53,781 bases of DNA. Origin: Acidimicrobiia bacterium (GTDB lineage Bacteria; Actinomycetota; Acidimicrobiia; Acidimicrobiales; Aldehydirespiratoraceae). The notes below the pieces were generated by a model, which was not told the origin of the DNA, did not search any database, and saw only the letters and a program-made list of their open reading frames with translations. The stretch covers positions 1-53,781 of the forward strand of contig JAHQYN010000007.1 in NCBI GenBank assembly GCA_024421085.1, written 5' to 3'. Shown one piece after another: positions 6,245 through 10,252 of this stretch (positions are counted from its first letter, which is position 1; the number at the start of each line of letters is the position of its first letter). The translations under genes and the position numbers were made by a program.

Positions 6245-7171
6245 TCAGGAGACCGTGAGCTGCGCCAGCAGCCGCCCAGAACCCTCGAGCTCGACTTCGA
6301 ACACGCCTGGGATGTCCGCGGTGAAGCTGAAGTTCAACGGTCGGCCCGGCGAGACCGAGCGCAGGATGTCGTAGCCGTGCACATGCACTTCCTCGGTGAC
6401 ATCGGAGGTGACGGTCACGGCGACTTCGGAGTTGAGAGCGACCCCGACCCGCTGGTGACCGCCGACCGGTTCGCCGTCGACGATCTCAATGGAGACAGTC
6501 TGGGCGGGGTTCGTCCCCTCGCCCGAGCCGGTGCCCGCTGACTCTGCTGAATCCATGCTGGACATGTCTTGTCCGGTCGGATCCTGGGCACCCGTGGAGC
6601 CGTCGGTCGCCAGGGTCGCCTGGTCAGCTGAGACTTCCAGAGTCACGGTGTCGTCAACGACGACTCCGTCGATCGCCATGGCCGAATGGTCGTTGGAGGA
6701 CAGCTCGACGCGGACCTCGTGAGTGCCGGCCGCCAGCGGGGGCATCTGATGCCACTCCCCGTAGAGGCGCATGACCTTTACGCCGTCGATGTAGAGGTGC
6801 ATGTGACCCTCGCCGTCGACATGGGCGGTGCTCACGTTCTCGGGGGCGATGCGGAAGTTGCTGGGCGCGCTGTGCAGGAGCCAGCCCCCCGCGGGGTCCT
6901 CGAGGACGCGCAGCGACACCGAGGGGTAGGGCTCCACCGCCGGCGTCGTGGCAGCGCCGTGAGCGTGCTGGTGCCCGTCTGCGACAGCAGCTTCGCCGCT
7001 CGGCGCCATCGTGTCGGCAGGGACCTCTCGGGTTTGTTGCGCCGTAGTCGGGGGGGCGGTCTCTGCCGCGGTCGTCTCTTGCGCGGCGGGTTGGGAGTTG
7101 TTGCCGCAGGCCGTGCAGAACAGCACCACCGCAACAGCTGTCGCTAAGCATCGCTTGGCGTGAGCATTCAT
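6245..7171 (-). CDS. His/Met-containing lipoprotein of unknown function
   Basis: Start MNAHAKRCLATAVAVVLFCTACGNN (lipobox); C-terminal beta-rich, cupredoxin-like segment HVHGYDILRSVSPGRPLNFSFTADIPGVFEVELEGSG. Confidence 0.65.
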   Translation of the reverse strand: MNAHAKRCLATAVAVVLFCTACGNNSQPAAQETTAAETAPPTTAQQTREVPADTMAPSGEAAVADGHQHAHGAATTPAVEPYPSVSLRVLEDPAGGWLLHSAPSNFRIAPENVSTAHVDGEGHMHLYIDGVKVMRLYGEWHQMPPLAAGTHEVRVELSSNDHSAMAIDGVVVDDTVTLEVSADQATLATDGSTGAQDPTGQDMSSMDSAESAGTGSGEGTNPAQTVSIEIVDGEPVGGHQRVGVALNSEVAVTVTSDVTEEVHVHGYDILRSVSPGRPLNFSFTADIPGVFEVELEGSGRLLAQLTVS

Positions 7172-7419
7172 GGGAGGAGGTCCTTGTGGATTTCGGCATT
7201 CAACGGGCACCGGCACCGACGGGCGGTCCGCGGGCAACAGCACCGTTGCGGTCAAGGCTAAGTTCACCGAGGCTCAATTCTAGTTAGCATCGCGCGGGAA
7301 TCACCCGAGCCGTTCCAAAGGCTGGCGGCCGAGCAGTTCCAGCGCGCAGGGTGCGGTCTCGTGGCGCCGGATTCGCCCGGGCCGCTCACCGGGCAGCCAA
7401 CTGGGCGGCCTCCCTCGCA

Positions 7420-8289
7420 TCAGCGACAGGTTCTATGCGGGCCCTCCTTGTGCGGAGGAAGCGCGCAGTGGGTGCGAGCTCTCGGCATCCATGCCCCGCA
7501 CTTGCTGTTCGGGACGGGCGCTACGCGGGGTGCTCCAAGGTCGCTGGCGGCATCGACGGTCTTGCGAAACTCCTTGTCGGAAGTGTCAGCGATGTATTCG
7601 AGGATTTGCGGTGCCCGCCGTTCAAGGTGGGCAAGCACGTCAATTCGCCGAGTTTCAAAACGTGGATCCGCTTGCAGTTGCCCGGGATCGGCTAGCAACC
7701 CGACAATCCGCTTGAGGATATGGGGGTTCGGGTCGTCTGTATAGTCGAACTTGCGCTTGTAGAACTCAATCCCATCCTCCAGAGAGTAGTTGGTCATCTG
7801 GTCGATCGAGGTGACGTCGATGTAGTCGCGCAGCTTTGGCCGATACATGATCACATCCAATTTGGTCGCCAAGATGTCGGGTATAGACCCGACAGGAACG
7901 TTGTCGACGGAGATGGGTTTCTCAAGCCATTTCATCTGTAAGGGATGTCGTTCTCCTGATTGTCTTGCCTGGAAGACATCTACCTTAATTCCTCCAATTA
8001 GTGCGAAATAATTACCGGTCTCACTGGCTAGAACCTCTTGCTCGTATGAGTGCCCAGCGGGGAATGCCTTGTCGAGGTGCTTGTGCATCTGGCGGTGCAG
8101 CGACCTGCCGGAGAAGTCCTTTAGCGTCATTATGTCCAAGTCCTCGCTGGCGCGGTGCTGCAGATGCAACGCGAGAGCAGTTCCTCCCATGAGGCGACCT
8201 GAAGTCTTGCGCGCCAGCACAGCGGCAAGCGGCCAGAGTTCTCGCAACTCTCTTGCTAGGAGATGCTCGTAGTCATCAATCAGCGACAC
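7420..8289 (-). CDS. AbiEii/AbiGii-type nucleotidyltransferase toxin
   Basis: LMGGTALALHLQHRASEDLDIMT nucleotidyltransferase signature, IGGIKVDVF, LATKLDVIMYRPKLRDYIDV; GTG start at 8289 overlaps the partner's stop. Confidence 0.85.
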   Translation of the reverse strand: MSLIDDYEHLLARELRELWPLAAVLARKTSGRLMGGTALALHLQHRASEDLDIMTLKDFSGRSLHRQMHKHLDKAFPAGHSYEQEVLASETGNYFALIGGIKVDVFQARQSGERHPLQMKWLEKPISVDNVPVGSIPDILATKLDVIMYRPKLRDYIDVTSIDQMTNYSLEDGIEFYKRKFDYTDDPNPHILKRIVGLLADPGQLQADPRFETRRIDVLAHLERRAPQILEYIADTSDKEFRKTVDAASDLGAPRVAPVPNSKCGAWMPRARTHCALPPHKEGPHRTCR

Positions 8290-9133
8290 GGGACCGTCTC
8301 CGCAATTCGGAGCGAATGACTTTGGCTGTATCACCTGTGTCGTAGCCGCGTGTCCCGGCCAGCGCTGTCAGCGTTTCTGTAGATACGGAACGCAGTGCCC
8401 ACGCCTCGGCAGACAGGTCCATGCTGCCAATAAGTGTGCCTGCGATATGCAGTTCGTCGCGTTCGAGACTGAGTTCTGAACCCTCTGCCCCCGACCAGAA
8501 CAGCGGCCAAAACTGGGGAGGAACAGCGCCGGGGACAGACGGCTCGGACATGGGTGCCCGACGACGTGGAAGATACCCGAGCAGCCTCACGCATTCAGGC
8601 GTATATGTCAGTGCCCAGAGTCTCTTGATGGTAGACTTGTATCCGTCGCGCACGATGCCGTCTTGGCCGAGAGCGATGCCAGCGGTTGAGAGTTTGTGGA
8701 GAACCCTGCGGGTCTGCCTCTCGGAGATACCAGCGATTACGGAGATTTTCCCGACGGTGGCCCCAGCCGGCCGCTGGCGCAGCGCGTTCAGCACACTCCT
8801 AGCCCCAGCGCTGAGCCCCATCGACGGGTCTTCAACTTGATCCGTTGATCCTGAGTCGCCCGTTGCCGGCAGGTACGGCGTCTGTCGTGTCTCAGATAGC
8901 CGGCGCTCAACAATGCTCGGCGACGTTTTAGTGCCGTGCATAGATGTGCCTGTCACAGCGGTGAACTCCCCACGGCAGTCGCGGCATCGCCATTGCGGCC
9001 ACCGGCGACCTGGACGCGCTCGCTCGGCTGTGCGCAAGCTGCCGCAATGTGGGCATATGATCTTGTCGGGCCACCTGACATCGGCAATCCGGCGAGCAGC
9101 ATTGACATCTGCCAGCTTTGGATTGGAGCCCAT
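8276..9133 (-). CDS. AbiEi-like antitoxin with N-terminal IS1595/ISXO2-type transposase zinc ribbon
   Basis: RWPDKIICPHCGS...WRCRDCRGEFTAVTGTSMHGTK zinc ribbon; central wHTH (TVGKISVIAGISERQTRRVLHKLSTAG); overlaps the toxin gene. Confidence 0.7.
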   Translation of the reverse strand: MGSNPKLADVNAARRIADVRWPDKIICPHCGSLRTAERARPGRRWPQWRCRDCRGEFTAVTGTSMHGTKTSPSIVERRLSETRQTPYLPATGDSGSTDQVEDPSMGLSAGARSVLNALRQRPAGATVGKISVIAGISERQTRRVLHKLSTAGIALGQDGIVRDGYKSTIKRLWALTYTPECVRLLGYLPRRRAPMSEPSVPGAVPPQFWPLFWSGAEGSELSLERDELHIAGTLIGSMDLSAEAWALRSVSTETLTALAGTRGYDTGDTAKVIRSELRRRSRVAD

Positions 9134-9331
9134 GTGTTCACTTTACCATTCTCGGGGACCGAACAGCAAGAAATGTCCGGTCTATTGCGCGTTTGGAACG
9201 TTGTGTCGGGTGGGTTGTCGAACACCCCTCGACGTAGCCAGGCGATGTGGTAGAGATCCCACCGGGCGAGCTTCGACGCGGAATCAAGCGAATCGCGGGC
9301 GCGCCGCAGCGGTGGCAGGTACTGTGGACGG

Positions 9332-10252
9332 ATGGATCACCGAGGGCCTCAGCGTGTACTGCTCGCAGGCGACACGCACCGCAACGGCGAGTGGGTGGGC
9401 ACGCTCTGCAAGCTGGCGAGCCGCCACGGTTGCGACACGATCCTGCAACTGGGGGATTTCGGGTACTGGCCCCACACCGACGAGGGCCTGCGCTTCTTGG
9501 AGCAGGTCGACGGGCACGCACAACGCAACGGGATCAACTGTCTTTACTGGATCGACGGCAACCACGAGAACCACGAGATGCTGGCAGCGCTCAAGGCCGA
9601 CGGAGACGGTTTCGTGACCATCGGCAACCGCTGTCGCTACGCACCGCGGGGCCATCGCTGGCGTTGGGGCCAGGTCGACTTCGGTGCCCTCGGCGGTGCC
9701 TTCTCGATAGATCACCACTATCGGGTTGAAGGCGTGAGCTGGTGGCCCAACGAGATGCCCACCGACGCCGACGTAGCGAAACTCGGTGACGCGCCGCTCG
9801 ACGTGCTGCTGTGCCATGACACACCCGAGGGCGCGCCGATACGGCAATTCGAGCTTCGACCTCGCGATGAGATGCTGTGCTCGCTGGTGCGCGGACGAAT
9901 CCTGCAGGCCGTCAAGGCCACACGGCCCCAACTGGTGGTCCACGGCCACTGGCATCGGCGCACCAGCAGCGAACTGAGTTGGCCGACCGACTGCGACGGC
10001 GAATTGTCCTGGGCCTCCACCCAGGTGGAGGGCCTAGCTGCCGACAAACAGGGCGACCATCGCGCCTGGGCAGTGCTGGAGGTCAACCCGCTCAAGTTCA
10101 TCGACGGCCATGCGGTGTCGGAGGTCGATCCACGCAAGTTCATCGACGGCCATGCGGTGTCGGAGGTCGATCCACGCAAGCTCATCGACGGCCATGCGGT
10201 GTCGGAGGTCGATCCACGCAAGTTCATCGACGGCCGAGCGGAAGTAACGTAG
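9332..10252 (+). CDS. Calcineurin-like metallophosphoesterase with C-terminal tandem repeat
   Basis: LLAGDTHRN, LQLGDFG, WIDGNHENHE, LLCHDTPEG, VVHGHWHR metallophosphoesterase motifs. Confidence 0.85.
   Translation: MDHRGPQRVLLAGDTHRNGEWVGTLCKLASRHGCDTILQLGDFGYWPHTDEGLRFLEQVDGHAQRNGINCLYWIDGNHENHEMLAALKADGDGFVTIGNRCRYAPRGHRWRWGQVDFGALGGAFSIDHHYRVEGVSWWPNEMPTDADVAKLGDAPLDVLLCHDTPEGAPIRQFELRPRDEMLCSLVRGRILQAVKATRPQLVVHGHWHRRTSSELSWPTDCDGELSWASTQVEGLAADKQGDHRAWAVLEVNPLKFIDGHAVSEVDPRKFIDGHAVSEVDPRKLIDGHAVSEVDPRKFIDGRAEVT
10094..10236 (+). repeat. 42-bp in-frame tandem repeat (3 full units plus a partial fourth), KFIDGHAVSEVDPR
   Basis: AAGTTCATCGACGGCCATGCGGTGTCGGAGGTCGATCCACGC starting at 10094, 10136, 10178, 10220. 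Confidence 0.97.

Follow-up and report, generated by a model that had tools for sequence, protein, structure and literature searches.

In the AbiE systems, which are the closest described counterparts of the locus considered here, the winged helix-turn-helix (wHTH) of the antitoxin AbiEi autorepresses its own promoter and its C-terminal domain neutralises the nucleotidyltransferase (NTase) encoded by the partner gene (PMC3985639). The NTase is defined by motifs I-IV (GG, R..DhD, K..R and D), the residues of which are essential in the AbiEii protein of S. agalactiae (PMC3985639), and a Ser or Thr is conserved at the phosphorylation site of MenT (PMC11375011). The window analysed here (a stretch of 53,781 nucleotides from the genome of an Acidimicrobiia bacterium) contains an AbiEii-type NTase gene overlapped by a regulator gene that opens with a zinc ribbon of the type found in IS1595/ISXO2 transposases.

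The overlapping gene pair

The upstream gene of the pair (Table 1), which occupies the antitoxin position, starts at ATG 9131-9133 and holds RWPDKIICPHCGS...WRCRDCRGEFTAVTGTSMHGTK. Residues 9-54 of its product match the Pfam family Zn_ribbon_IS1595 (PF12760; E 2.2e-7, 31.2 bits against a curated cut-off of 25.4 bits), and all four ribbon cysteines are intact. Pfam detected the DDE catalytic domain of the transposases (PF12762) neither in this protein nor in its relatives, and the transposase-type HTH that is present in relatives of about 330 aa is absent from the window antitoxin and from its two close relatives, L037 and L101.

Table 1. Features of the gene pair and its promoter region, in window coordinates
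Feature	Positions	Strand	Description and basis
AbiEii-type nucleotidyltransferase, putative toxin	7420..8289	-	289 aa, GTG start; PF08843 and motifs
Antitoxin-position gene	8276..9133	-	285 aa: zinc ribbon, linker, wHTH and DUF6922-like tail
DUF6922-like C-terminal domain	8279..8524	-	About residues 204-285; match in L123 and profile match
Winged HTH, MarR/IclR type	8639..8815	-	About residues 107-165; HTH_IclR in family members
Short, fast-evolving linker	8816..8923	-	Residues 71-106; relatives have the transposase-type HTH here
IS1595-type zinc ribbon with TGTxxHxTK extension	8924..9094	-	Residues 14-70; Cys27, 30, 50 and 53; PF12760, Cys pattern and dN/dS
Conserved promoter/operator block	9134..9188	-	Directly upstream of the antitoxin ATG
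Candidate promoter	9140..9169	-	TTGCTG (9164-9169), 18-bp spacer, TAAAGT (9140-9145); by eye
Imperfect palindrome, candidate operator	9157..9182	-	GACCGGACA-n8-TGTTCGGTC, over the -35 region

By sequence comparison, the body of the antitoxin consists of a predicted winged helix of the MarR/IclR type and, behind it, a DUF6922-like domain, a different kind of partner for an AbiEii protein. The HTH_IclR model of Pfam matches 14 of the 23 family members (the match in the window antitoxin itself being weak); for the tail, the family member L123 scores above the cut-off of DUF6922 (PF21956), the window antitoxin gives no match to that model, and a profile of the wider core family aligns in register with a DUF6922 protein (52% probability, E 1.4e-4). 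The ‘AbiEi-like’ tail of the original prediction has therefore been replaced by this assignment: at an E-value of 0.01 no AbiEi model of Pfam matched any of the 23 members (the window protein and 22 relatives), the only AbiEi wHTH match was found in a single relative at E 0.5, and a profile comparison against five AbiEi_4 proteins of the class returned a probability of 0.3%. Membership of AbiEi is rejected at the level of sequence, although the tail may be structurally akin to the C-terminal domain of AbiEi. An AlphaFold model of the window antitoxin built from an alignment of two sequences reached a mean pLDDT of 42 and a pTM of 0.24, too low to be usable, and a sequence search of solved structures gave no significant match for either the antitoxin or the NTase.

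The zinc ribbon and the AbiEii-type partner of the prediction are confirmed: the ribbon scores above the curated cut-off and the overlapping NTase is matched by AbiEii (PF08843) with an E-value of 3.3e-14 (53.9 bits against a cut-off of 22.5), as well as by the AbiEii models of PADLOC. All four catalytic motifs are present in GGTALALHLQHRASEDLD and KLDVIMYRPKLRDYID (motif IV being placed by eye): the protein retains GGT, HRASEDLD, KLDVIMYR and RDYID, and the motifs are conserved in nearly all toxins of the family. The Thr that follows the GG is, by an assignment made by eye, consistent with the Ser/Thr site of MenT. The upstream GTG at 8334, which would give 304 aa, gives way to GTG 8289 (VSLIDDYEHLL) as the most likely start of the NTase, because VSL(I/L)D..EHLL opens the protein in both close relatives with the same type of 14-nt overlap between the two reading frames. 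The antitoxin-first, bicistronic order is kept in the relatives, and the NTase is under purifying selection (dN/dS 0.19 against L037 and 0.15 against L101). At the C-terminus of the NTase (window 7420-7510), a Cys/His cluster, CGAWMPRARTHCALPPHKEGPHR, is conserved in L037 and L101 and could possibly form a small zinc site.

A cassette with its own promoter block

Blast comparison of the window with L037 and L101 recovers one common block of 1.78 kb (about 7409-9188 in the window), which consists of both genes and about 55 bp of promoter DNA, and both of its flanks are unrelated. Upstream of the antitoxin, positions 9134-9188 are the sole DNA conserved among the three, with unrelated sequence beyond. 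The gene pair and its ~55-bp promoter block form a self-contained ‘cassette’ set into the otherwise unrelated surroundings of three genomes. In the window the neighbours of the pair are FecCD, a periplasmic binding protein, a metallophosphoesterase and an SDR; the metallophosphoesterase-like reading frame (9332-10252) closes with a set of tandem repeats, each of ~16 aa and nearly identical to the next, AVSEVDPRKFIDGH (window 10090-10252).

Within the conserved block, the TAAAGT of the candidate promoter sits 6 nt before the antitoxin ATG, an arrangement of the leaderless type, and a TANNNT at the same distance from the start is also found in several relatives; a consensus scan for sigma-70 sites at the antitoxin promoter found none. 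The palindrome that overlies the -35 region matches at 8 of 9 arm positions, a marginal score that 5.7% of shuffled sequences also reach, and its outer arm positions are lost in L037 and L101, leaving a weak palindrome within a conserved block; because it is both marginal and decaying in relatives, the operator remains a candidate. Other subclades of the family have different conserved promoter blocks (as read by eye), which is to be expected if operator sequences diverge together with their regulators, and such conserved but clade-specific blocks would fit a role of the captured module in operator recognition. In L037, the nearest relative, a perfect 14-bp inverted repeat (L037:116-156) abuts the conserved promoter block on its upstream side and is possibly a terminator or a boundary of the cassette. 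No Rfam family matched within 7000-9600.

Spread of the fusion and its natural variants

The proposal that a transposase module had been captured by the partner of an AbiEii NTase, for which homologues with the same fusion had been looked to as a check, is borne out by homology that runs through ribbon and HTH and by conservation across genomes. About 17 relatives with the same fusion were recovered from 13 other genomes, together with a second copy in this genome. The sampling took in 296 genomes from the class, then 248 from the order, and GTDB contigs; as these are samples, the prevalence is indicative only. The fusion-bearing genomes are G144, G268, G242, G769 (with two), G715, G809, G689, G810, G791, G770, G749 and G827; L037, from GTDB contigs and by title an Acidimicrobiaceae MAG, is 85% identical to the window antitoxin. 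In a sample of 397 genomes of the phylum the fusion was not seen outside the class, the remaining matches being core-only or on the ribbon side (transposase-like). Phage records held no relatives, viral contigs only three IS1595 transposases, and plasmids only partial transposase-like matches, the best of which (H10) overlaps no listed gene.

The second fusion gene of this genome (G000:C12) encodes 332 aa. At its locus (L105:2383-3566; about 31.0-32.1 kb of G000:C12) the antitoxin is intact and the adjacent toxin is only about 62 aa long, with DSN in place of DLD, which leaves the fusion there as an orphan antitoxin.

Three forms of the fusion occur: one of about 330 aa, with ribbon, transposase-type HTH, wHTH and tail; one of 285-286 aa, with ribbon, short linker, wHTH and tail (the window protein, L037 and L101); and one of about 400 aa, with ribbon, HTH, long linker, wHTH and tail (L090-L092). 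In ribbonless relatives the same core either stands alone (about 200 aa) or is preceded by a MerR-like HTH, and the DNA upstream of these members yielded no ribbon remnants. Immediately downstream of nearly every core gene, an AbiEii reading frame abuts or overlaps it. In the aligned set, every member with a ribbon (17 of 17) is matched by PF12760, and the four ribbon cysteines are conserved where the fusion protein is intact (alignment A2). Some members are degenerate. In G242 (L104, contig C18), the wHTH part of the fusion gene contains a stretch of about 11 G at which the reading frame shifts (L011:1540-1555), which may be a sequencing error, decay or phase variation; in G770 (L089; C1:672366-672959), the gene is degenerate, with one ribbon cysteine gone and the wHTH deleted.

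Origin of the module and selection upon it

A profile of the antitoxin ribbon and HTH matches IS1595 transposases across the full module, and the DDE domain of these enzymes, DDE_Tnp_IS1595 (PF12762), was present in all six transposases tested. Homology of the captured module to the N-terminus of IS1595 transposases is thus supported by sequence. In a tree of the module (61 rows), 19 antitoxins fall on one side and 42 IS1595 transposases on the other, with support of 95/98; the alignment has 99 columns only, so that the inner forks are uncertain. In a tree of the core, the ribbon and ribbon-plus-HTH forms and five ribbonless members make up one group (98/99), and the ~400-aa form is placed elsewhere with weak deep support. 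The loss of the HTH in the window lineage is a single event (three of three members; 100/100). One capture followed by losses would be the simplest reading of these trees; alternatively, the transposase module may have been captured twice.

Simple Nei-Gojobori estimates on short segments gave dN/dS values, for the window against L037, of 0.22 in the ribbon, 0.25 in the core and 0.81 in the linker, and against L101 of 0.26, 0.17 and 0.63, respectively. The ribbon and the core are under purifying selection and the linker is relaxed. The fusion is an old acquisition of the DNA-binding part of a transposase, kept by selection. That it is a functionless product of chance or of decay, in which an IS1595 remnant merely adjoins an antitoxin gene, could be argued from the degenerate and frameshifted members and from the ribbonless ones, but this reading is refuted by the presence of the fusion in 13 other genomes, its single module clade, its conserved cysteines and a dN/dS of about 0.2.

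A proposed mechanism and its alternatives

The account that we favour, and consider probable by a modest measure, is that of an AbiEii-type toxin-antitoxin cassette, in which the antitoxin is the autorepressor of a leaderless promoter and the captured module serves as an additional DNA-binding part. By analogy with AbiEi, the upstream gene product would act as antitoxin and as autorepressor of the operon promoter through its MarR/IclR-type winged helix, and its DUF6922-like domain would neutralise the downstream NTase, which, if it resembles MenT and AbiEii, would be expected to block translation via tRNA modification. The fusion would have arisen in an ancestor belonging to this actinobacterial class, when the ribbon and HTH of an IS1595/ISXO2 transposase, without the catalytic domain, were joined to the N-terminus of the antitoxin; the module would most likely strengthen or re-specify binding to the operon's own promoter, and the window lineage would later have dropped the transposase HTH while retaining the ribbon. 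Toxicity, neutralisation, autorepression and the role of the ribbon in DNA binding are what we infer from such comparisons. Two predicted DNA-binding modules in one protein would fit a DNA-binding role, and five members of the same clade do without the ribbon, which indicates that the captured module is dispensable for the pair, an ‘add-on’.

Zinc ribbons can also bind RNA or protein, and C4 ribbons are versatile. The captured ribbon might be a protein-binding, RNA-binding or zinc/redox-responsive module that holds the antitoxin-toxin complex together or frees the toxin upon stress, and not a reader of DNA, which we regard as unlikely. The window lineage lends itself to such a role, having lost the transposase HTH with the ribbon alone under selection, but most relatives retain the full DNA-binding region of the transposase, HTH included, and this suggests that the module originally served to bind DNA.

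A regulator paired with a non-toxic NTase that has another role is a less probable alternative again. PF08843 proteins do occur without antitoxins (PMC3985639); the conserved, regulator-first overlapping operon, the presence of all four NTase motifs and the cassette-like distribution speak against it.

It is highly doubtful that the antitoxin is a sensor of mobile DNA, in which the ribbon would bind the ends of IS1595-type elements and couple transposition or incoming elements to control of the toxin as a trigger of defence; equally doubtful is the corollary that the module would respond to transposon ends or to transposase activity, so that the invasion or movement of an IS1595-type or similar element would de-repress or release the toxin. 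The module does derive from the DNA-binding region of a transposase, intact and partial IS1595 transposases reside in the same genome, and in two relatives (the pairs of G144 and G268; L102:3666-5999 and L103) the fusion operon adjoins a divergent hsdR-type gene of type I restriction (confirmed by Pfam for G144, the G268 neighbour being a near-copy of it), which is a hint of a defence context. Against this, no resident transposase lies close to the antitoxin module in the module tree, and nothing that was found points to transposon sensing; a search for terminal inverted repeats around the IS1595 copies of this genome gave nothing usable for comparison with the operator.

Comparison with known systems

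The locus offers a clear and conserved bacterial case in which the antitoxin of an AbiEii-type pair reuses the DNA-binding region of a transposase, and it suggests that parts of transposons are reusable for the control of a toxin or defence operon. The natural series of ribbon with HTH, ribbon only and neither makes a gain of operator specificity by an antitoxin testable, and were the sensor reading true, it would represent a defence system that turns the enemy's own DNA reader against mobile DNA. For AbiEii toxins of the phylum, a non-AbiEi class of partner (a MarR-type wHTH with a DUF6922-like tail) is described for which no paper was found in a literature search that covered few subscription papers; the same search found no paper on AbiEi and a zinc ribbon together, or on DUF6922. 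Automatic annotation might mislabel such proteins as transposases on the basis of their PF12760 match.

With the AbiE type IV systems (AbiEi/AbiEii, and MenA/MenT of mycobacteria), the pair shares a DUF1814/AbiEii NTase with motifs I-IV and an overlapping upstream regulator gene with a wHTH, with autoregulation likely by analogy; it differs in that its regulator falls outside AbiEi in both Pfam and profile comparisons, has a DUF6922-like tail and bears an N-terminal, transposase-derived ribbon, with or without the HTH. The ribbon, and in most relatives also the HTH at similar spacing, is shared with IS1595/ISXO2 transposases (PF12760 and PF12762), whereas the antitoxins lack the DDE domain, are fused to a regulator, lie beside AbiEii and form a separate group in the tree. 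Proteins with DUF6922 (PF21956) and a MarR_2 wHTH that are encoded beside AbiEii (for example L123, L136, L019 and L114) have the same core in the same operon, but begin with a short HTH of MerR-like type where the window antitoxin has its ribbon, and the window tail is too diverged to match PF21956. Finally, the host-transposase fusions of eukaryotes, in which a host regulator has taken the DNA-binding domain of a transposase, resemble this case in concept, the present fusion being bacterial and part of a toxin-antitoxin operon.
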